Origin: Streptomyces coryli
Lineage (GTDB): Bacteria; Actinomycetota; Actinomycetes; Streptomycetales; Streptomycetaceae
Assembly (NCBI RefSeq): GCF_011044975.1
Contig: NZ_JAAKZV010000078.1
Coordinates: forward strand, 1 to 32,022
DNA: 32,022 nucleotides
Reading direction: 5' to 3'
Every line of letters starts with the position of its first letter. Position 1 is the stretch's first letter. Below are positions 10,496-19,112 of this stretch, piece after piece. The position numbers were made by a program, and so were the translations under genes. A model generated the notes under the pieces. It was given only the letters and a program-made list of their open reading frames with translations, made no database searches and was not told the origin of the DNA.

Positions 10496-10684
10496 TCAGC
10501 GGTCTTGCTCACCTCCCGCGGGCCGCCCCCTCGGTGTCTCCCGGCCCTGCTCGCGCCACTGCTGCATCAGCCGGGCATACACCGGCGACTCCGCCTCCAG
10601 CCAATACCTGCCGGTCGCCGCGGCCGGCGCCTCCGACACCGCCGGCTCCCGTCCCGCACCTGTCTGCTGAGTCACATGCTCCAT
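10496..10684 (-). CDS. Possible small protein of 62 residues, function unknown
   Basis: An open frame starting MEHVTQQTGAGREP and ending PRGRPAGGEQDR, with a plausible helix YWLEAESPVYARLMQQWREQ in the middle. GAAGGGGGC sits just before the ATG at 10682-10684, a good ribosome binding site. It lies 90 bp downstream of the phosphatase gene on the same strand and could be the last gene of that operon. I do not recognise the family. Composition and RBS favour a real gene, but it is short. Confidence 0.45.
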   Translation of the reverse strand: MEHVTQQTGAGREPAVSEAPAAATGRYWLEAESPVYARLMQQWREQGRETPRGRPAGGEQDR

Positions 10685-10774
10685 GCCCCCTTCAACGACC
10701 CCACCGCCGACGGCACACGGACAATCGCCACAAGTCACCTGCACCCGCGCATCTTCGAACTTCCGGTCGACAGG

Positions 10775-11401
10775 TCAGTTCAAGTGATGGGTGTCGTTCA
10801 GGGCCCGCACCGTGGCGGTGCCGTCCTTCTCGTACGTGACCGTCGACAGGGAAGCCGCCGCGACCTCTATGCGGAACAGGCTGTGCGGCGGTGCCTGCAG
10901 GGCGAGGCGGATCAGCGTTCTGAGCGGTCCGACGTGGGAGACGACCAGCACCGTGGCCCCCGCATACCGGACCGTCAACCCGTCCCGGACGGCGGTGACC
11001 CGGCCGGCCACCTGCCGCATGGTCTCGCCTGCGCCCGAGGGTGGCATCTCGGGCGAGGCGAGCCATGCGTCCAGGTCGTCCGGGTACCGGGCGCGGACTT
11101 CGGCGAAGGTCAGGCCTTCCCAGGTGCCGAAGTCCGCTTCCCGCAGGTCCCGTTCGACCTGGAGGCTCAGGCCGAGGCGCGTGGCCACGGCCTGAGCGGT
11201 CTCGCGGCAGCGCCGCATCGGTGACGTGACGACCGCGTCGATGCCGCCGCGGCGGGCGAGGGCGTCCGCCGTCGCCGCGGCCTGGCGGCGGCCGGCCGGG
11301 GAGAGGCCCGGGTTGGTTCCGCCGCTGCCGGAGAGCCGCCGCTCGGGGGTGAGCAGGGTTTCGCCGTGCCGCAGCAGGACGAGGGTCGTCACGTCGCTCA
11401 C
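10775..11401 (-). CDS. Histidine phosphatase family protein (phosphoglycerate mutase-like)
   Basis: A 208-residue enzyme of the branch-1 histidine phosphatase fold. LLRHGET carries the phospho-accepting His, TSPMRRCRETA the second phosphate-binding Arg, EADFGTWEG the acid and SHVGPLR the second His. All catalytic residues are present, so it should be a cytoplasmic phosphatase or mutase. GTG at 11399-11401 overlaps the stop of the SRPBCC gene (GTGA), showing translational coupling. Within this operon it may remove a phosphate from an intermediate, but its substrate cannot be assigned; a cobalamin or sugar-phosphate phosphatase role is equally possible from sequence alone. Confidence 0.88.
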   Translation of the reverse strand: MSDVTTLVLLRHGETLLTPERRLSGSGGTNPGLSPAGRRQAAATADALARRGGIDAVVTSPMRRCRETAQAVATRLGLSLQVERDLREADFGTWEGLTFAEVRARYPDDLDAWLASPEMPPSGAGETMRQVAGRVTAVRDGLTVRYAGATVLVVSHVGPLRTLIRLALQAPPHSLFRIEVAAASLSTVTYEKDGTATVRALNDTHHLN

Positions 11402-11883
11402 CGCGCGGTCGCGGGCTGCGCGAAGTGGTCGCGTACGGCGTCGGTCTGCTTCTCCATGATGGCGACGATGCCCTCGACCACGGTCAGGTCGGCGTCCTCG
11501 GCGATCTCCAGGGTCCGGGACCAGTCGAAGAAGCTGCGGGCCGGGTCGTTGGTGATGGGGAAGACCCGGATGGTGGCCTCGTAGCTGGCGACGCCGCTGG
11601 TGGGCGCGACGGCCCGGTAGGACTGGGTCCTGTTGATCTCGTCGCGGGCGGCGATCTCCTGCTGGACGACCTTGCCGCTGAGCGTGAGCTTGAAGTCGTA
11701 GCGCGCCGGGACCGTTTCGACCGAGCCGCCGTCGACCCAGCTGGTGTCCCGGTGGACGTCGAGGTCGCCGGGGGACACGATCTCCAGGATCTTCATGGCG
11801 TCGCGGATGGTCGCCCACACGGTGTCCGGGTCGGCGTCGAGGATGGTCGAGTGGTACATGGTGTGCTTGCGCTGGATCGGCAC
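11398..11883 (-). CDS. SRPBCC (START/Bet v1-like) family protein
   Basis: A 161-residue protein. YHSTILDADPDTVWATIRD is the usual opening of an SRPBCC domain (strand, then helix), and the final helix is in IVAIMEKQTDAVRDHF. The fold forms a deep hydrophobic pocket, used by aromatase/cyclases, lipid carriers and ligand binders. GTG at 11881-11883 follows AAGAAGGAG and was chosen over the longer open frame. It sits between the carbamoyltransferase (29 bp upstream) and the phosphatase (4 bp overlap). In this operon it may hold or shape a pathway intermediate, including a Pictet-Spengler-type step since some SRPBCC proteins do that chemistry; this is inference. Confidence 0.85.
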   Translation of the reverse strand: MPIQRKHTMYHSTILDADPDTVWATIRDAMKILEIVSPGDLDVHRDTSWVDGGSVETVPARYDFKLTLSGKVVQQEIAARDEINRTQSYRAVAPTSGVASYEATIRVFPITNDPARSFFDWSRTLEIAEDADLTVVEGIVAIMEKQTDAVRDHFAQPATAR

Positions 11884-11912
11884 GGGTGCTCCTTCTTCTG
11901 GAACGCGCTTTT

Positions 11913-13712
11913 CTAGGAGGCGCTCTTGGCGACGAGGTGGTTGCCGAGGATCAGGTAGTCGATCTCGGTGCCCAGGAAGCAGTTCAGGGCGTCGGCGGGA
12001 GTGCAGACGATCGGTTCGCCGGCGACGTTGAACGAGGTGTTGATCAGGCACGGGGTGCCGGTCAGTTCGGTGAACCTCCGCAGCAGGGCCGTAAGCCGCG
12101 GGGTGCCCTCGTCGGTCAGCGTCTGGATGCGGGAGGTGCCGTCCACGTGTACGGCGCCGGGGATGCGGTCCCGGTATGCGTCGCGTACAGGGAAGACGAA
12201 CGTCATGTACGGGGAGCTGGTCTTGCGCCCCATCTCGAAGATCTCCGGCGCCCGCTCCTCCAGGACCAGCGGAGCGAACGGGCGGAACGGCTCGCGGTGC
12301 TTGACCCGGGTGTTGATGATGTCCTTGATGTCGCTGAAGCCGGGGTTGGCGAGGATGCTGCGATGGCCCAGCGCGCGCGGCCCGTGCTCGATGCGCCCTT
12401 CGAACCAGCCGATGACGACCTTCTCCGTGAGCAGCTTCGCCACCTGCTCGACGACCTCGTCGTCGTCCAGGCGCGTGACGGTGACGCGGCCGGCGAAGGC
12501 GGCGAGGGCTTCCTCGATCGCTGCCTCGTCGTAGGCCGGTCCCAGATACGGGGAGACGGGCGCGGCGGCGGCGTGGATGTCCGCGGGTCCTGTGCCGGGA
12601 TCGTTGAGCCAGGCGTGGGCCGCGGCCCCGATGGTGATGCCGGTGTCGGAGGCGCCGAAGCTGACCTGCATGTCCGTAAAGCGGGAGCCCTCGAACAGCG
12701 GGGTGTTGTTGAGGCAGTTCAGGGCGACGCCGCCCTCGAACAGCAGCCGGTCGAGATCCGTCCGCTTCTCCAGATGGCGCACCTGGTGGGCGGTGGCGGC
12801 ATTCAGCATCTGCTGGGCCGCGGCGGCCACCCGGGCCTTGTACTCGAGGGTGTCCTCGAAGGGCCCGAAGTACTCCTCGAACAGGGCGTCGTGGCTGTGC
12901 AGATGGTCCGTCTGCAGCGGCCTGGTGAAGGTGTAGCGGCCGTCGTCGTGCAGCACCAGCAGGCGCTCGACGAACGGGTTCGGGGCCGGCGGCGCGGTGT
13001 ATCCGGCCAGGCCCATCACCTTGTACTCGTCGTTGTTGGGGACGAAGCCGAGGAAGCGGGTGATGGCGGAGAACAGCGTCCCGATCGAGAACCGGGCGCC
13101 GGTGACGGTGTCCTCGAAGACGGTGATCCGGCCGTCACGTATCTCGCCCGTCAGGGTCGAGAAGCGCTCGGCGCGGCCGTCGCTGACGAGGAAGGCCGAG
13201 TCCTTCATGCCGCCGAGGTAGTAGCCGGTGGTGGCATGGGCGAGGTGATGCGGTACGAAGCGGACCTTGGCCGGGTCCGGCCGGTGCCCGGTGCGGGCCT
13301 CGAAGTCCGCGAGCATCGCCTCGTGGCTGACCACCTCGTCGAACAGGTCGACCATGTCGCCCATGAGCCGGGTCTTCGCCGGCTGCGGCATCGGCGCTAC
13401 GCGGATGCCGTCCAGGATCTCGTCCAGCGTCCCGGCGGACCAGTTCCAGGGAAAGGCGAACAGGTCGACGTCGTCGTACGTGATCCCGGCTTCCTCCAGG
13501 CACCAGTTGACCGCGTTCGCGGGGAAGTCGGTGGTCTTCTTCTCCCGGTTGAGCCGCTCTTCCTCCACCGCGGCGACCAGGCGGCCGTCCACCAGCAGCG
13601 CGGCGGCGGCGTCGTGGCCCAGGAGGTAGTGCTTGTTGATGCCGGTCGCGCCGAGGCGTTCGGAGAAGAACTCCGACACCCGGCTGAAACCATTACATCC
13701 GAGAACGATCAC
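11913..13712 (-). CDS. Carbamoyltransferase, NodU/CmcH/TobZ family
   Basis: A 599-residue enzyme of normal length for the family. The N-terminal Kae1-like half has GHDAAAALLVDGRLVAAVEEER, the metal-binding HHLAHA motif (His155 and His159) and NNDEYKVMGLAGY. The C-terminal carbamoyltransferase domain begins near VVIGWFEGRIEHGPRALGHRS and runs through FRPFAPLVLEE to CLINTSFNVAGEPIVC. These proteins convert carbamoyl phosphate and ATP to carbamoyl-adenylate and move the carbamoyl group to a hydroxyl (or rarely an amine) of a small molecule. They are nearly always tailoring enzymes in antibiotic or Nod-factor synthesis. It lies 22 bp after the flavoenzyme gene in the operon, which marks this locus as a probable natural-product pathway. 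Confidence 0.95.
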   Translation of the reverse strand: MIVLGCNGFSRVSEFFSERLGATGINKHYLLGHDAAAALLVDGRLVAAVEEERLNREKKTTDFPANAVNWCLEEAGITYDDVDLFAFPWNWSAGTLDEILDGIRVAPMPQPAKTRLMGDMVDLFDEVVSHEAMLADFEARTGHRPDPAKVRFVPHHLAHATTGYYLGGMKDSAFLVSDGRAERFSTLTGEIRDGRITVFEDTVTGARFSIGTLFSAITRFLGFVPNNDEYKVMGLAGYTAPPAPNPFVERLLVLHDDGRYTFTRPLQTDHLHSHDALFEEYFGPFEDTLEYKARVAAAAQQMLNAATAHQVRHLEKRTDLDRLLFEGGVALNCLNNTPLFEGSRFTDMQVSFGASDTGITIGAAAHAWLNDPGTGPADIHAAAAPVSPYLGPAYDEAAIEEALAAFAGRVTVTRLDDDEVVEQVAKLLTEKVVIGWFEGRIEHGPRALGHRSILANPGFSDIKDIINTRVKHREPFRPFAPLVLEERAPEIFEMGRKTSSPYMTFVFPVRDAYRDRIPGAVHVDGTSRIQTLTDEGTPRLTALLRRFTELTGTPCLINTSFNVAGEPIVCTPADALNCFLGTEIDYLILGNHLVAKSAS

Positions 13713-13734
13713 GGCTTTCTTTCCTGTTCTGGGG

Positions 13735-14781
13735 CTACGTGACGATCAGCAGGTCGCGGAGCCGCTCCCCGGCCGCGGGCGCCTGGCACAGGCCCGCGCC
13801 GGTGAAGCCGGCCGCGTACAGGAAGCGTCGGGTGGGGTGCTCGCCGATGAAGGCGGCGTTACGGGGGCTGGCGTCGAAGTCGCCGGTCCACGCGCGATGC
13901 AGGCCGATGCCGTCCAAGGCGGGGAAGAGGGTGCCGAGATGACCGGCGATGCGGCCGAGCCAGGCTTCACGCACCTCGCCGGCCTTGGGCGCGCCCATGG
14001 CGAGCAGGATGCGGTCCTTCCACGACCGGATCCGCAGCCCGGAGGCGGCGTGCATCGTCATCGGCAGATCGGGATGCGGGACGGGCGGCACGTCGGTGAA
14101 CAGCATCTCGATCGCGTGCGGAGCCAGCGGCAGCTCGACCGCCGCCATCGCCGCCACCTCGCCGGACCAGGGCCCGGCCGTGCACACGATGCTGTCCGCC
14201 GCGATGCTGCCCTGCGGCGTGTGGACGGTGTTGTCGTCGTCGATGCGTACGACGGGGGTGTGCGTGAACAGGCGGGCGCCGTGATTACGGGCGGCGGCCG
14301 CATAGCCGCGCACGATGTCCAGACCGTCCACGTGATACGCCTCGGGCGACCAGGCGGCGCCCAGCACGGCGCGCTCGTTGACCAGCGGGTTGAGTTCGTA
14401 CGCCTCGCGGGCGCTGATCAGGCCGACCTGGACCCCGGCGTCCTGCTGGGCCTGCCGCCCGGCCTCGAAGTCGGCGATCTGCTGCTCGTCGGTGAACAGC
14501 ACCAGGAATCCGAGCTGTTTCAGCGCGAGCGGGGCCGCGGTGTGGCGGGCGAAGTCGCGATAGGCCCGCAGGCTGCGTACGGCCCGGCGCCCCGTCTCCG
14601 GGTCGCCGGGGAAGTAGCTGCGGACCATGCCCGCCGTGTGCGCGGAGGCCCCGCCGCCGAGGCTTCCGCGTTCCAGCAGCACGGTGTTCACGCCGGCTTC
14701 GGCGAGGTGGTACGCGGCGGAGGTGCCGATCACTCCGCCGCCGATGACGACGGCGTCGGCGCGGGCAGGCAGAACGCTCAA
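13735..14781 (-). CDS. FAD-dependent oxidoreductase (DadA/glycine oxidase-like)
   Basis: A 348-residue flavoprotein of the D-amino-acid-oxidase superfamily. The dinucleotide-binding motif VVIGGGVIGTSAAYHLAEAG starts near residue 11, GGGASAHTAGMVR is the second FAD contact, and FLYAAGFTGAGLCQAPAAGE is the C-terminal FAD motif. Relatives oxidise glycine, sarcosine or other secondary and primary amines to imines. It starts with TTG at 14779-14781, two bases after the stop of the upstream gene, so start and coupling are both inferred; no ATG or GTG is available before the FAD motif. In this operon it could oxidise an amino-acid-derived ring or the amine substrate. Confidence 0.88.
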   Translation of the reverse strand: MSVLPARADAVVIGGGVIGTSAAYHLAEAGVNTVLLERGSLGGGASAHTAGMVRSYFPGDPETGRRAVRSLRAYRDFARHTAAPLALKQLGFLVLFTDEQQIADFEAGRQAQQDAGVQVGLISAREAYELNPLVNERAVLGAAWSPEAYHVDGLDIVRGYAAAARNHGARLFTHTPVVRIDDDNTVHTPQGSIAADSIVCTAGPWSGEVAAMAAVELPLAPHAIEMLFTDVPPVPHPDLPMTMHAASGLRIRSWKDRILLAMGAPKAGEVREAWLGRIAGHLGTLFPALDGIGLHRAWTGDFDASPRNAAFIGEHPTRRFLYAAGFTGAGLCQAPAAGERLRDLLIVT

Positions 14782-14783
14782 GG

Positions 14784-15746
14784 CTACGCGCCCGCCTTGA
14801 CGCCCTGCTGCTGACGCAGGTGGTCTCCGGTGTCCCACGGGTACAGCTGGAGGTTCCAGCCGCCGAGGCAGTTGATGTAGAGGGCCAGTTGGCTGGTGAC
14901 CGCGTAGAAGTCGTCGCGGTCGAGCCGGTCGACGACATCGAGGAAGCGCTGGGTGAACGCCCACAGCGGCTCCAGGCCGCAGTAGCCGAGGAACTCGGCG
15001 GGGACACCGACCAGCAGCCGCGCCATGTGGACGAGGGAGTCCATCGGCATGCCCTGGACGGCGGCCCGGACCAGCCCGCCGTAGGCGGCGTAACCCAGCG
15101 GCCGGGTCTCGCCGTTGACGAACAGCAGGGTGGGCAGGACGGTGCCGAAGTTGCCCGCCTGCGAGGGGATGATGCCCTGGTGGAGGCCGTCCAGCTCGAC
15201 CGGCGGCGCGAGCCAGATCTTCTCGGTCTCGGCGGCGACGTCGGCGATCAGACTGCTGGCGTCCGCGTCGGTGGCGCCGAGGACCGGGATGCGATGGCCG
15301 CCCGCCTCGCCCGCGCGCCGGACTTCGGCGACGATCTGCTTCTTCGTGGAGTAGACGGCATCCCAGATGACGCCTCCGGCCTCCCGCAGCGCGGGCAGGT
15401 CCGCCTCCCGGATCCGGCCGACGGGGTTGGCGGGCATCGGCTCGGTCAGGGTGCCGTACTTGATGCCCAGGTGCTGCAAGCCGGAGCAGAACACGGTGCC
15501 GTCGGGGGCCTCGCGCCGGTCGGGGATGCGGGTGGTGTGCGGGGTGTGCAGCAGCTTGGGTATCGGCGCTACGTGGTAGAGGTGTTCCCCCGCGATGAGG
15601 GCGTGTCCCTGAAGGCTCCGGTAGGGCAGGGAATCCCAAAGGGCGTCGGCCAGCGCCGGGTTGCGGTCGTCAAGGTCGGCGGTGACCATGAGACCGAGGT
15701 CGGGCCACGAGATCTCGATCTGACGGCGAGACTGCTTCTCAGACAA
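14784..15746 (-). CDS. Cucumopine-synthase-like protein (cyclophilin-like fold plus helical bundle)
   Basis: A 320-residue protein. Residues 8 to about 110 (IEISWPDLGLMVTADLDDRN, then ALADALWDSLPYRSLQGHAL and GEHLYHVAPI) have the pattern of the small cyclophilin-like fold. A segment TVFCSGLQHLGIKYGTLTEP, then MPANPVGRIREADLPALREAG, leads into an all-helical C-terminal half. This order resembles cucumopine synthase of Agrobacterium, which condenses histidine with 2-oxoglutarate to a tetrahydro-imidazopyridine by a Pictet-Spengler-like reaction. The match is from memory of the fold pattern, not an alignment. TTG at 15744-15746 with GGGAAAG ahead is the preferred start; ATG at 15824 is in frame but has no ribosome binding site. 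It heads the tight operon with the FAD enzyme and carbamoyltransferase. Confidence 0.6.
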   Translation of the reverse strand: MSEKQSRRQIEISWPDLGLMVTADLDDRNPALADALWDSLPYRSLQGHALIAGEHLYHVAPIPKLLHTPHTTRIPDRREAPDGTVFCSGLQHLGIKYGTLTEPMPANPVGRIREADLPALREAGGVIWDAVYSTKKQIVAEVRRAGEAGGHRIPVLGATDADASSLIADVAAETEKIWLAPPVELDGLHQGIIPSQAGNFGTVLPTLLFVNGETRPLGYAAYGGLVRAAVQGMPMDSLVHMARLLVGVPAEFLGYCGLEPLWAFTQRFLDVVDRLDRDDFYAVTSQLALYINCLGGWNLQLYPWDTGDHLRQQQGVKAGA

Positions 15747-15840
15747 GGCTTTCCCGTTCGTTGGTTCGGCTTGCCCGAGGAGTACATCGCCGGTGAGCGG
15801 CCTGCGGCCAGGCGTCAAAGACATGAAACGGGAGCGGGCT

Positions 15841-15876
15841 GGGGCCCCAAGTTCGTATCTTTCTACGAAAGTTGGC
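15841..15876. terminator. Long imperfect hairpin between the hydrolase and the operon
   Basis: TTCGTA (15852-15857) and TACGAA (15864-15869) pair perfectly around a six-base loop. The stem extends outward through CCAA/TTGG and GGCC/GGCC blocks with small bulges, to about 15841 and 15876. It overlaps the stop codon of the hydrolase gene. There is no T run, as is common in streptomycetes. It may end or attenuate transcription before the cucumopine-synthase-like gene. Confidence 0.5.
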
Positions 15877-16741
15877 CCCCCTGGACCATGTTCAATGACC
15901 CGAAGAAGCCGGCCAGCGCGCGGGCGATGCGGTCGGGGGCGTTCTCGGTGGGGATGTGGTCCGCTTCCGGGATGCGTACGAGCGTGGTGTGCGGGATCTC
16001 CGCGGCGAACCGCTCGGCGTACTCGACCTTTTCGTGGGCGTCGTCCTCGCCCCAGATCAGCAGCTTGGGGATGGTGGAGCGCCGCAGCGCGGGCACGAGG
16101 TCGAGGGTGTAGCGGCTGTCGGCGGCGCCCGCCAGTGCCAGCCAGGAGCGGCGGACCCGCGGGTCGGTCCACGGGTCGAGATACTCCGCGACGAGTGGCT
16201 CGGTGGCGGCGCCGGCCAGCGCGTTGGTGACCGCCTGCCGGCGGGCGGCGAGCACGCCCTCGGTCGCGTCCGTGGCCGGGTCGGGGCCCGGGTCCGGGTC
16301 CCGGAACCGGGCCACGTGCGGCGCCGGCCAGGAGTCGTAGAGGACCGAATTGGCCAGGGCCAGCCGGGAGATCTCCAGTTGGCCGTGGACGAGGAGATGC
16401 TGGGATACGGCGCCCCCGATGTCGTGCCCCGCCAGCGCGACCGGCCCGGAGATGCCCAGCGCCGACGCGAATCGCCCGACCCAGTCCGCGAGGGCCGGGA
16501 CCGTCGCCGTCTCCGGGGTGAGCTCGCCGCCCGAGCGTCCCAGTCCGGGGAGATCGACCGCGACGGGCCGCAGCCCCGCCCCGGCGAGGCGGCCCAGCAC
16601 CGGGAGCCAGACCCGGCTCCAGTACGTGCCGTGCAGCATCAGCACGACGGGCCCGTCCGCCCCCGCGGTCAGGTAACTGGCCGCTTCGCCGTCGACCACG
16701 ACTTCGGTCCTGAGCACTGTGGTGTCGGTGGTGTGCGTCAT
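15863..16741 (-). CDS. Alpha/beta hydrolase with Asp nucleophile (epoxide hydrolase-like)
   Basis: A 292-residue hydrolase. The oxyanion motif is HGTYWSRVW, the nucleophile elbow is AGHDIGG with Asp107, the acid is in WGEDDAH and the His in EADHIPTEN. An Asp rather than Ser at the elbow is typical of epoxide hydrolases and haloalkane dehalogenases. The ATG has no clear ribosome binding site, so the start is less certain. Its stop is 38 bp from an in-frame ATG and 116 bp from the likelier TTG of the cucumopine-synthase-like gene on the same strand, with a hairpin between, so it may or may not belong to that operon. Upstream it faces the remnant of a GlxA-type regulator, which may once have controlled it. 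Confidence 0.85.
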   Translation of the reverse strand: MTHTTDTTVLRTEVVVDGEAASYLTAGADGPVVLMLHGTYWSRVWLPVLGRLAGAGLRPVAVDLPGLGRSGGELTPETATVPALADWVGRFASALGISGPVALAGHDIGGAVSQHLLVHGQLEISRLALANSVLYDSWPAPHVARFRDPDPGPDPATDATEGVLAARRQAVTNALAGAATEPLVAEYLDPWTDPRVRRSWLALAGAADSRYTLDLVPALRRSTIPKLLIWGEDDAHEKVEYAERFAAEIPHTTLVRIPEADHIPTENAPDRIARALAGFFGSLNMVQGGQLS

Positions 16742-17207: not shown

Positions 17208-17263
17208 TTGACTTCCCAAGACCCTCGCGCAACATTCCCTGACGCAGCATCAGAAATGCTGCG
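17208..17263 (+). promoter_or_regulatory. Promoter and palindromic operator of the KstD-like gene
   Basis: TTGACT (17208-17213) and AACATT (17231-17236) are spaced by 17 bases and form a plausible promoter. Directly downstream, CGCAGCAT (17243-17250) and ATGCTGCG (17256-17263) form a perfect eight-base inverted repeat around CAGAA. Its place at about the transcription start fits a repressor operator; the cognate regulator is unknown. Confidence 0.55.
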
Positions 17264-17312
17264 ATCGGCTCCCTTCGCCGTACTTCCCCGCCACTCGCAG
17301 GAGCGATCCGTC

Positions 17313-19112
17313 ATGCCCAAAAACTCCGCGTCAGCAGACCCTCCGAGACCCAGATCCAGACCCGGAACCGCCCGCCCCTCGCGCCGCCAGGTCATCGGCA
17401 CCACCACCGCCGCCCTCGCCATCGCCGGGCTCCCCACCGTCGCGGCCGGAGCCGAGCTGCCCGTCCTCGGCGAGTACGACGTCGTGGTGGTGGGCGCGGG
17501 AGCGGCCGGCATGACCGCCGCGCTCACCGCGGCCAAGCGCGGGCTGAGCTGCGTGATCGTCGAGAAGGCGGGCACCTACGGCGGCTCGGCGGCCCGCTCC
17601 GGCGCCGGGATCTGGATACCCAACAACCCGGTCATCCTGGCCGCGGGCGTACCCGACACCCCCGCCAAGGCCGCCGCGTATCTGGCGGCGGTCGTGGGCG
17701 ACGAGGTGCCCGCGGCACGGCAGCGAGCGTTCCTCGACCACGGGCCCGGCATGCTCTCCTTCGTCATGGCCAACAGCCCGCTGCGGTTCCGCTGGATGGA
17801 CGGCTACAGCGACTACTACCCCGAGCTGCCCGGCGGCCTCCCCGGCGGCCGGTCCATCGAACCGGCCCAGCTCGACGGGAACATCCTCGGCGCCGAGCTC
17901 GCTCGCCTCAACCCGCCCTATCTGCCCGTCCCGGCCGGCATGGTCGTCTTCAGCGCCGACTACAAGTGGCTCGCCCTGTCCGCGGTGAACGCCAAGGGCA
18001 CGGCGGTCGCGACCGAATGCCTGGCCCGCGGCACCAAGGCCGCGCTGCTCGGCCAGAAGCCCCTCACCATGGGGCAGTCCCTGGCGGGCGGGCTGCGCGC
18101 GGGACTGCTCGCCGCCGGCGTACCGGTGTGGCTCAACACCCCGCTCACCGACCTGCACTTCGAAGGCGGGGCCGCCCGGGGAGTCGTCGTCACCCGGAAC
18201 GGCGCCGCCGGCCTGGTCCGGGCCCGCCGCGGCGTGATCGTCGGCTCGGGCGGGTTCGAGCACAACGCGGCCATGCGCGCCCAGTACCAGCGCCAGCCGA
18301 TCGGCACCGCCTGGACCGTGGGCGCGAAGGAGAACACCGGCGACGGCATCCGCGCGGGCGCCCGGGCCGGCGCCGCCCTCGCCCTGATGGACGACGCCTG
18401 GTGGGGCCCGGCGATCCCGACGCCGGGCGAGCCGTACTTCTGCCTGGCCGAACGCACCCTGCCCGGCGGCCTGATGATCAATCAGGCCGGGGCCCGCTTC
18501 GTCAACGAGGCGGCGCCCTACAGCGACGTCGTCCATGTCATGTACGACAAGAATCCGACGGCGCCGGACATCCCCGCGTGGCTCATCGTCGACCAGAACT
18601 ACCGCAACCGGTATCTGTTCAAGGACATCACGCCGACGTTCCCCTTCCCTGGCTCCTGGTACGACTCCGGGGCCGTGAAAAAGGCCTGGACCCTGGACCA
18701 GCTCGCCACCGCGACCGGCGTGCCCGCGGCCGCGCTCAAGGCCACCGTCAACCGCTTCAACTCCCTGGCCAGGGGCGGAAAGGACACGGACTTCCAGCGC
18801 GGCGACAGCGCGTACGACCACTACTACACCGACCCCGCGATCACCCCGAACTCCTGCCTGGCCCCGCTGTGGCTCGCCCCCTTCTACGCCCTGAAGATCG
18901 TGCCCGGCGACCTCGGCACCAAGGGCGGCCTGCTGACCGACGCCCGCGCCCGCGTCCTGCGCCCCGACGGCACGCCGATCCCCGCCCTCTACGCCGCCGG
19001 AAACGCCAGCGCCGCGGTGATGGGTCACAGCTACGCGGGCGCGGGCTCGACCATCGGCCCGGCCATGACCTTCGGGTACATCGCAGCGAACGACGTCGCA
19101 GACCTGCGATGA
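17313..19112 (+). CDS. Tat-exported FAD-binding dehydrogenase, 3-ketosteroid 1-dehydrogenase-like
   Basis: A 599-residue flavoprotein. The N-terminus carries a twin-arginine signal (SRRQVIG, Arg24-Arg25, then AALAIAGLPTVAAGA), so it is predicted to be exported folded. The FAD motif is VVVVGAGAAG near residue 57. The KstD features are clear: SDYYPELPGG with the expected Tyr, PYFCLAERTLPGG, and near the C-terminus MGHSYAGAGSTIGPAMTFGY, whose Tyr574 and Gly578 match the catalytic Tyr/Gly pair. KstD removes hydrogens from C1-C2 of 3-ketosteroids. ATG 17313 was chosen for its GGAG and because it begins the signal peptide. No steroid-degradation genes are nearby, so the substrate may be another 3-keto compound. 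Confidence 0.85.
   Translation: MPKNSASADPPRPRSRPGTARPSRRQVIGTTTAALAIAGLPTVAAGAELPVLGEYDVVVVGAGAAGMTAALTAAKRGLSCVIVEKAGTYGGSAARSGAGIWIPNNPVILAAGVPDTPAKAAAYLAAVVGDEVPAARQRAFLDHGPGMLSFVMANSPLRFRWMDGYSDYYPELPGGLPGGRSIEPAQLDGNILGAELARLNPPYLPVPAGMVVFSADYKWLALSAVNAKGTAVATECLARGTKAALLGQKPLTMGQSLAGGLRAGLLAAGVPVWLNTPLTDLHFEGGAARGVVVTRNGAAGLVRARRGVIVGSGGFEHNAAMRAQYQRQPIGTAWTVGAKENTGDGIRAGARAGAALALMDDAWWGPAIPTPGEPYFCLAERTLPGGLMINQAGARFVNEAAPYSDVVHVMYDKNPTAPDIPAWLIVDQNYRNRYLFKDITPTFPFPGSWYDSGAVKKAWTLDQLATATGVPAAALKATVNRFNSLARGGKDTDFQRGDSAYDHYYTDPAITPNSCLAPLWLAPFYALKIVPGDLGTKGGLLTDARARVLRPDGTPIPALYAAGNASAAVMGHSYAGAGSTIGPAMTFGYIAANDVADLR

Follow-up and report, generated by a model that had tools for sequence, protein, structure and literature searches.

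What is made by a compact operon that holds neither a polyketide synthase (PKS) nor a nonribosomal peptide synthetase (NRPS), and when would the cell make it? The question is raised by five genes in a 32,022-nucleotide stretch of Streptomyces coryli DNA (contig NZ_JAAKZV010000078.1, positions 1 to 32,022; the whole stretch is called the window here), which lie together on the minus strand at positions 10775-15746. The reading that we favour, as somewhat the better bet, is that they form a carbamoylated beta-carboline operon, fed by tryptophan and a phosphorylated triose and wired into the purine-catabolism regulon. Beta-carboline clusters are of a known kind; new, to the extent of the literature searched and of the parts of it consulted, are the carbamoyl five-gene set and its tie to guanine breakdown, which was unexpected and is well repeated. 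The element and the genes are the following, with amino acids abbreviated as aa, base pairs as bp and flavin adenine dinucleotide as FAD.

15766..15871, minus strand: promoter-like element with three conserved boxes, 106 bp in the window
14784..15746, minus strand: predicted McbB-type Pictet-Spenglerase, 320 aa, TTG start (PF18631 Cucumopine_C, 6.6e-48)
13735..14781, minus strand: predicted FAD amine oxidase (DAO) of the sarcosine/glycine oxidase family, TTG start (PF01266, 4.2e-60)
11913..13712, minus strand: predicted NodU/TobZ-type carbamoyltransferase, 599 aa, GTG start (PF16861, 1.3e-67; PF02543, 9.5e-35)
11398..11883, minus strand: SRPBCC (Bet v 1/START-like) protein, 161 aa, GTG start (PF10604, 9.4e-11)
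10775..11401, minus strand: predicted histidine phosphatase (branch 1), 208 aa, GTG start (PF00300, 2.4e-56)

The operon and its Pictet-Spenglerase

The original prediction, made from the letters of the sequence, described a compact minus-strand operon of five genes, and the description holds. All five frames are intact with zero internal stops, the families named were recovered by a Pfam scan, and the intergenic gaps in transcription order are 2, 22, 29 and -4 bp, the last being a 4-bp overlap of the SRPBCC and histidine phosphatase genes. The first gap is 2 bp and not -4 bp because the codon at 14787 is GTA, which places the start of the FAD gene at the TTG at 14781. For the Pictet-Spenglerase the codon at the aligned start position is TTG in 15 of 16 sequences, the window included, and ATG in one. 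A longer protein from the in-frame ATG at 15824 can be ruled out, because in other loci an extra base breaks the frame there and the TTG position is kept.

The first enzyme had been foreseen as a cyclophilin-like fold joined to a helical bundle. This architecture is supported by Pfam and by an AlphaFold2 model (predicted local distance difference test, pLDDT, 89.1), with the cyclophilin-like domain at the N-terminus and the bundle at the C-terminus. Foldseek matches the model to PDB entry 3x27 with a template modelling (TM) score of 0.91. This entry, titled 'Structure of McbB in complex with tryptophan', is also matched by phmmer over residues 7-311 (E 5.7e-84), and 140 of the 304 aligned residues (46%) are identical along the whole length, in the same domain order. 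Moreover R77, H92 and E102 are invariant in 39 of 39 aligned rows and align to McbB R72, H87 and E97, which we take to be the catalytic residues. Judged by sequence and model, the 320-aa enzyme is a McbB-type tryptophan Pictet-Spenglerase, the turnover of tryptophan being assigned by analogy. KslB (PDB 9ns6 and 9k0a) belongs to the same family and according to the PDB titles has tryptophan chemistry; it differs in the order of its domains, which is reversed in the sequence match, and in its identity of about 28% over about 147 columns, and its chains rank after 3x27 in Foldseek.

For McbB, which belongs to the marinacarboline pathway, we know of no carbamoyl step, nor do we know of a carbamoyltransferase associated with StnK2/StnP2 of streptonigrin, which is likewise a Pictet-Spenglerase beside an FAD oxidoreductase. 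Beyond its only 46% identity, McbB differs in its side-chain aldehyde, which is oxaloacetate-derived (PMC7148486); StnK2 differs in using beta-methyltryptophan (PMC4742848) and shows 49% identity to the pyridindolol-type enzyme described below (Table 4, PMC7955054). A distant Pictet-Spenglerase, 48% identical to that of the window, lies between two DAO-type FAD genes in another Streptomyces (L096, G103).

The relatives of the operon were collected in one scan of 84,980 species genomes, using pattern seeds from the window Pictet-Spenglerase. It turned up 94 relatives, and the top 80 were kept (L001-L080); because of this choice, and because the seeds came from the window's own protein, distant kinds are missing from the set. 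The five-gene counts rest on tblastn and the gene calls on a home-made caller. Type A, as we call loci that have all five genes together, accounts for 34 of the 80 and occurs in Streptomyces, Streptacidiphilus and Nocardia; the five genes take up 4.9-9.0 kb (median 5.0). There are five gene orders: Pictet-Spenglerase, FAD enzyme, carbamoyltransferase, SRPBCC and histidine phosphatase in 24 loci, the SRPBCC gene first in seven (mostly Nocardia), and three others in one locus each. As the genes stay together in 34 of 80 loci and in five arrangements, the set is more than a chance association, and the co-conservation on which the original prediction depended is present. The carbamoyltransferase and SRPBCC genes occur in 34/34 type-A loci and 0/46 others, the SRPBCC gene thus tracking the carbamoyltransferase strictly. 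The FAD enzyme is found in all 34 type-A loci and in 45 of the 46 others; for the histidine phosphatase the counts are 34/34 and 9/46.

The FAD oxidoreductase adjoins the Pictet-Spenglerase in nearly all relatives, and its nearest proteins are the amine-oxidising sarcosine, dimethylglycine and glycine oxidases (best PDB match 1y56_B, a sarcosine oxidase, 1.4e-33). The predicted carbamoyltransferase has both the N- and the C-terminal domain (PF02543, PF16861) and the PHHxAHA motif in common with the NodU/TobZ/GdmN O-carbamoyltransferases, and the motif is present in 34/34 type-A loci. Its best PDB match is 7xb6 (7.9e-207), labelled just 'Carbamoyltransferase', with GdmN and TobZ ranking lower. 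The PDB entries nearest to the histidine phosphatase are small-molecule phosphatases, and its RHG motif is kept in all 34 type-A loci. The model of the SRPBCC protein (pLDDT 88.9) gave similar Foldseek scores to PYL receptors, Bet v 1 and norcoclaurine synthase, a list of modelled likenesses that favours neither a carrier nor an enzyme.

Guanine breakdown and a common promoter-like element

A gene for a deaminase of 167-189 aa lies within the fetched stretch at 28 of the 34 type-A loci and at only one of the 46 others (L038). It most resembles 1wkq, a guanine deaminase of the Bacillus subtilis type (1.9e-41); guanosine and tRNA deaminases rank lower. At five loci (L014, L017, L033, L040 and L043) it stands inside the operon, between the carbamoyltransferase and SRPBCC genes and, by match ends, 16-52 bp from a neighbour gene. 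The xanthine dehydrogenase genes xdhABC are also present in about 20 of the 34 type-A loci; in L001 the large subunit (TIGR02965) and the accessory protein (TIGR02964) score over the NCBIfam cut-offs and the small subunit just below (431.9 vs 467). In L032 and L095 the same position is occupied by another kind of xanthine dehydrogenase, of the PucD type (TIGR03196, over cut-off). We do not favour a xanthine-dehydrogenase-like enzyme dedicated to the alkaloid, since by score the associated enzymes are xanthine dehydrogenases of the ordinary kind. The PucD-type family is also found in two loci with only part of the operon left, L038 and L097. Of the operon, L038 has kept just the Pictet-Spenglerase, accompanied by guanine deaminase and by xanthine dehydrogenases of both kinds, and L097 retains a short FAD gene, the PucD-type enzyme, guanine deaminase and a phosphatase. 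In addition, a Nocardia locus (L083) has pieces of the Pictet-Spenglerase and an SRPBCC gene between xdhABC and guanine deaminase. These decayed or partial copies, situated between genes for xanthine dehydrogenase and guanine deaminase, suggest that the unit once included the purine genes.

The same association is found across whole genomes. In a survey of 150 Streptomyces and 148 Nocardia genomes a type-A carbamoyltransferase was defined by at least 68% and at least 71% identity, respectively, and seven Streptomyces matches (53-58%) and five Nocardia matches (52-56%) were set aside as other clusters. All 12 Streptomyces with the type-A enzyme have guanine deaminase and xanthine dehydrogenase, against 11 and 30 of the remaining 138 (Fisher 7.8e-12 and 6.4e-8, kinship ignored). 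Both genes are likewise present in 11/11 such Nocardia, against 7 and 18 of the remaining 137 (2.5e-12 and 2.7e-9, kinship again ignored). Over both genera that makes 23 of 23 genomes, the genes often being adjacent. In G044, which is among these 12 Streptomyces, the Pictet-Spenglerase was not matched at the threshold used. Two survey genomes with the type-B locus described below (G025, G088) showed neither deaminase nor xanthine dehydrogenase. A further set of 28 genomes includes 22 of type A, overlapping with the 12 and 11 survey genomes, and 22/22 have both genes; among the six of types B and C the deaminase was found in 0/6 (best E 1e-28) and xanthine dehydrogenase in 1/6.

When operon leaders were aligned, a conserved block emerged before the start codon. 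It is 107 bp long (106 bp in the window), ends 19 bp ahead of the first start codon of the operon and contains three boxes, as defined from 45 aligned copies: TTGTAGAAnTCTACGAA; TTTCATGTCTTCCACCCCTGGCTGA; GGCTGTGTACTCCTC. The length varies only from 104 to 110 bp, except for two copies of 96 and 97, and the boxes are ungapped. A sequence-only model of the 45 copies (R1), whose matches to those copies are by construction, gave 46 matches at E <=1.5e-10 over the window and the 80 loci: before the operon in 34/34 type-A loci and in the window (66.9 bits), as a second copy in L032, before nine deaminase genes and in L038. Two more matches, in L038 and L011, lie at 0.002-0.006, and R1 did not find the element in 45 of the 46 loci that are not type A, L038 being the exception. 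The evidence from outside the training copies is a profile of 16 operon leaders for guanine deaminase, and the whole-genome matches for pucR. The leader profile alone matches 19 deaminase places (E 6.6e-17 to 4e-5), operon-free genomes included. Among 14 deaminase regions from operon-free genomes (L081, L082, L084-L092, L098-L100) the element is present in ten (L087 at 2.3e-13); it was not found at the deaminase of L086, L088, L100 and L092, the contig of the last beginning about 160 bp before the gene. The operon and a purine-breakdown gene have thus a promoter element in common.

In 24 whole genomes 23 matches were obtained at E <=4e-14, which by position lie before the operon (12), the deaminase (10) and an operon remnant (1). 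A second tier of 15 matches (E 1e-6 to 0.016) was also found, and 13 of the 14 that were inspected adjoin pucR (L101-L113), PucR being identified by Pfam for three places and by BLAST to L101 for the remainder. In ten of these places the divergent neighbour is a PucD-type xanthine dehydrogenase operon, in two it is a xanthine/uracil permease alone and, in the Nocardia place L110, an 8-oxoguanine deaminase over the NCBIfam cut-off. At the fourteenth place (L114) neither pucR nor a purine gene of this kind was seen. The weaker intergenic copies that lie between pucR and purine genes are a candidate operator for actinobacterial PucR. According to a review, another regulator, XdhR, connects xanthine dehydrogenase with antibiotic control in S. 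coelicolor (PMC6627660).

The pyridindolol-type and other relatives

Besides type A two further kinds of locus can be recognised. Type B comprises nine loci (L020, L021, L024, L026, L027, L029, L030, L031 and L034) with an AMP-ligase, an aldehyde dehydrogenase, a phosphatase and an F420-type oxidoreductase; these 9/9 loci account for the nine histidine phosphatases found outside type A and are without carbamoyltransferase, SRPBCC gene and purine element. Type C comprises 35 loci of Nonomuraea, Actinomadura and their kin (L045-L054, L056-L080) with a P450 and/or an acyl-CoA ligase, and tblastn found a histidine phosphatase in 0/35 of them. L038, L039 and L055 stand outside the three types. A maximum-likelihood tree was computed from 79 Pictet-Spenglerase rows, omitting three B loci and further ones whose calls were trimmed. 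Types A and B share a clade (100/100) that excludes C, and B is a single group inside A, beside the Nocardia type-A rows (enclosing group 98/89). L039 falls in the A/B clade, its C label having come from a weak P450 match.

The window contains the Pictet-Spenglerase with an FAD oxidoreductase beside it and the histidine phosphatase that have been published, for Streptomyces sp. ID38640 and S. alboverticillatus, as part of a putative pyridindolol cluster (PMC7955054). The AMP-ligase and aldehyde dehydrogenase for carboxyl reduction are absent from the window. The assignment is that paper's own hypothesis: tryptophan would react with a C3 unit, possibly glyceraldehyde (phosphate), and oxidoreductases would aromatise the ring, the phosphatase being left unexplained (PMC7955054). 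According to the same source S. alboverticillatus, a pyridindolol producer, has a type-B-like cluster, pyridindolol carries a dihydroxyethyl side chain and was recorded at m/z 259.1089, and the cluster was missing from the antiSMASH output. Alkaloid clusters of so small a size, lacking PKS and NRPS genes, go unnoticed by the common cluster-finding programs. The statement in the original prediction that no such cluster had been described must therefore be divided: it is upheld for the full five-gene set, which was not found in the portion of the mostly open-access literature consulted, and is mistaken for the three-gene core. Nor was a carbamoyltransferase found in the consulted parts of the mostly open-access papers that pair McbB with Pictet-Spengler chemistry.

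Three of the 34 type-A loci (L022, L028 and L035) carry the AMP-ligase/aldehyde dehydrogenase pair as well. Because B nests in A and these three loci carry both branches, the pyridindolol-type clusters look, from their sequences, like relatives that have lost the carbamoyl branch. The first steps are probably shared by types A and B. This nesting offers a testable, concrete scaffold and would explain the phosphatase that was left open in PMC7955054.

Proposed product, rival readings and flanking genes

The small carbamoylated, amino-acid-derived heterocycle that had been predicted remains the best inference, and the substrates, the order of steps and the product can be proposed more closely. 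L-tryptophan would be joined by the Pictet-Spenglerase to a short aldehyde bearing a phosphate, for which glyceraldehyde 3-phosphate is the likeliest candidate, giving a 1-substituted tetrahydro-beta-carboline-3-carboxylate, and the sarcosine-oxidase-like FAD enzyme would oxidise the ring amine to give the aromatic beta-carboline. The histidine phosphatase would then remove the phosphate from the beta-carboline intermediate and the carbamoyltransferase would O-carbamoylate the hydroxyl so freed. Least certain is the role of the SRPBCC protein, which probably binds an intermediate on the carbamoyl branch. An example product would be the carbamate of 1-(1,2-dihydroxyethyl)-beta-carboline-3-carboxylic acid, C15H13N3O5, with a hand-calculated [M+H]+ of 316.09, that is 43.01 above the uncarbamoylated diol; in the few relatives that have the AMP-ligase/aldehyde dehydrogenase pair, reduction of the acid would be expected, as for pyridindolol. 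A phosphorylated triose would account for the phosphatase, which all A and B loci have and all C loci lack. Nonocarboline A of Nonomuraea is 1-hexanoyl-beta-carboline-3-carboxylic acid (PMC7148486), and for plain acyl side chains such as those of the Nonomuraea compounds no phosphate would be needed; our guess is that type-C loci are a candidate source of nonocarboline-like compounds.

Transcription would proceed from the element common with guanine deaminase, probably read by PucR, and because of this shared element we propose that the alkaloid is made during guanine breakdown. If true, this wiring ties a specialised metabolite to nucleotide recycling through one promoter in two genera. A bolder version, put forward tentatively and held to have clearly less than an even chance, is that the carbamoylated beta-carboline is a working part of actinobacterial guanine breakdown: it would be made only in cells that take guanine to urate, under the same PucR-type signal, and would act on purine metabolism (the producer's own or a competitor's) or be built or finished by it.

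Several points weigh against the favoured reading. Guanine deaminase and xanthine dehydrogenase were not found in the window's 32 kb (both are predicted elsewhere in its genome), in some genomes (e.g. G063) the purine genes are far from the operon, and the Fisher tests of their co-occurrence take no account of kinship. Beside pucR the matches are weak (per-genome E 1e-6 to 0.016) and fall largely at orthologous places, the binding of PucR is a guess from position, and the TIGR02965-type xdhABC operons of type-A loci have no clear copy of the element. On the chemical side, glyceraldehyde phosphate is proposed by analogy with a published, unproved proposal, and the SRPBCC protein is without an assigned role. 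The purine link might be a matter of location and borrowed regulation, the operon having inserted beside the deaminase and xanthine dehydrogenase genes and taken a copy of the deaminase promoter for a product unrelated to purines. These two genes are indeed adjacent also without the operon (L081, L082 and L084-L092, except where cut), and the purine-gene sequences do not separate operon genomes, as the xanthine dehydrogenase identities overlap. However, the association persists in Streptomyces and Nocardia across arrangements, with the deaminase inside the operon in 5/34 loci, and it holds where the genes are on different contigs or far apart; moreover, an unrelated second type of xanthine dehydrogenase stands in for the first or accompanies it, and the element is retained in 34/34 type-A loci, so that we consider this explanation rather unlikely. 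That the 107-bp element is a structured RNA such as a purine riboswitch, and not a DNA operator, is decidedly improbable: for 34 divergent copies RNAalifold returned -24.5 kcal/mol, and the top helix score of 23.6 lay above the maxima of 12 column shuffles (12.7-20.4), but at some helix positions just 4 of the 34 sequences pair, the length is nearly fixed with ungapped boxes, and Rfam matched only at E 4.5 on the opposite strand. The riboswitch reading is not supported, even with that helix score.

As for the aldehyde, it could be unphosphorylated (an alpha-keto acid or oxaloacetaldehyde), with the histidine phosphatase serving another step. The McbB residues that presumably handle the aldehyde are kept in the window enzyme, and KslB structures hold tryptophan products with 2-oxoglutarate or succinic semialdehyde, according to their PDB titles; the phosphatase, however, tracks types A and B and is absent from the P450 type, and pyridindolol, the putative type-B product, has its dihydroxyethyl side chain, and we regard this alternative as unlikely. 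A cucumopine-like imidazopyridine from histidine and 2-oxoglutarate, the analogy drawn in the original prediction, is hardly credible. It is suggested by the Pfam name of the C-terminal domain, Cucumopine_C, but the DUF3830 family proteins on Agrobacterium and Rhizobium plasmids, among which we count the opine synthases, are only 26-27% identical to the window enzyme, as against 46% and a full-length collinear fold match for the tryptophan-using McbB. The structural comparison that had been suggested as a check thus led to McbB, and histidine chemistry of the cucumopine type was rejected on identity and fold.

Around the carbamoylated beta-carboline operon, an alpha/beta hydrolase gene (15863-16741, minus strand) lies directly upstream, 116 bp away. 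It was rejected as a sixth operon gene and is regarded as window-specific, since it is found in 0/80 relative loci; the conserved promoter-like element between it and the operon also counts against its membership. Downstream, an MmyB-like regulator gene (PF17765; 9600-10490, minus strand) is preceded by a gene for 82 aa (10496-10744, minus strand); it was discarded as the cluster regulator, a relative being near 1/80 loci only (L059, 36% identity, weak). Divergent to the alpha/beta hydrolase gene is one for an FAD_binding_2 oxidoreductase, flavocytochrome/fumarate-reductase-like, at 17208-19112 on the plus strand.

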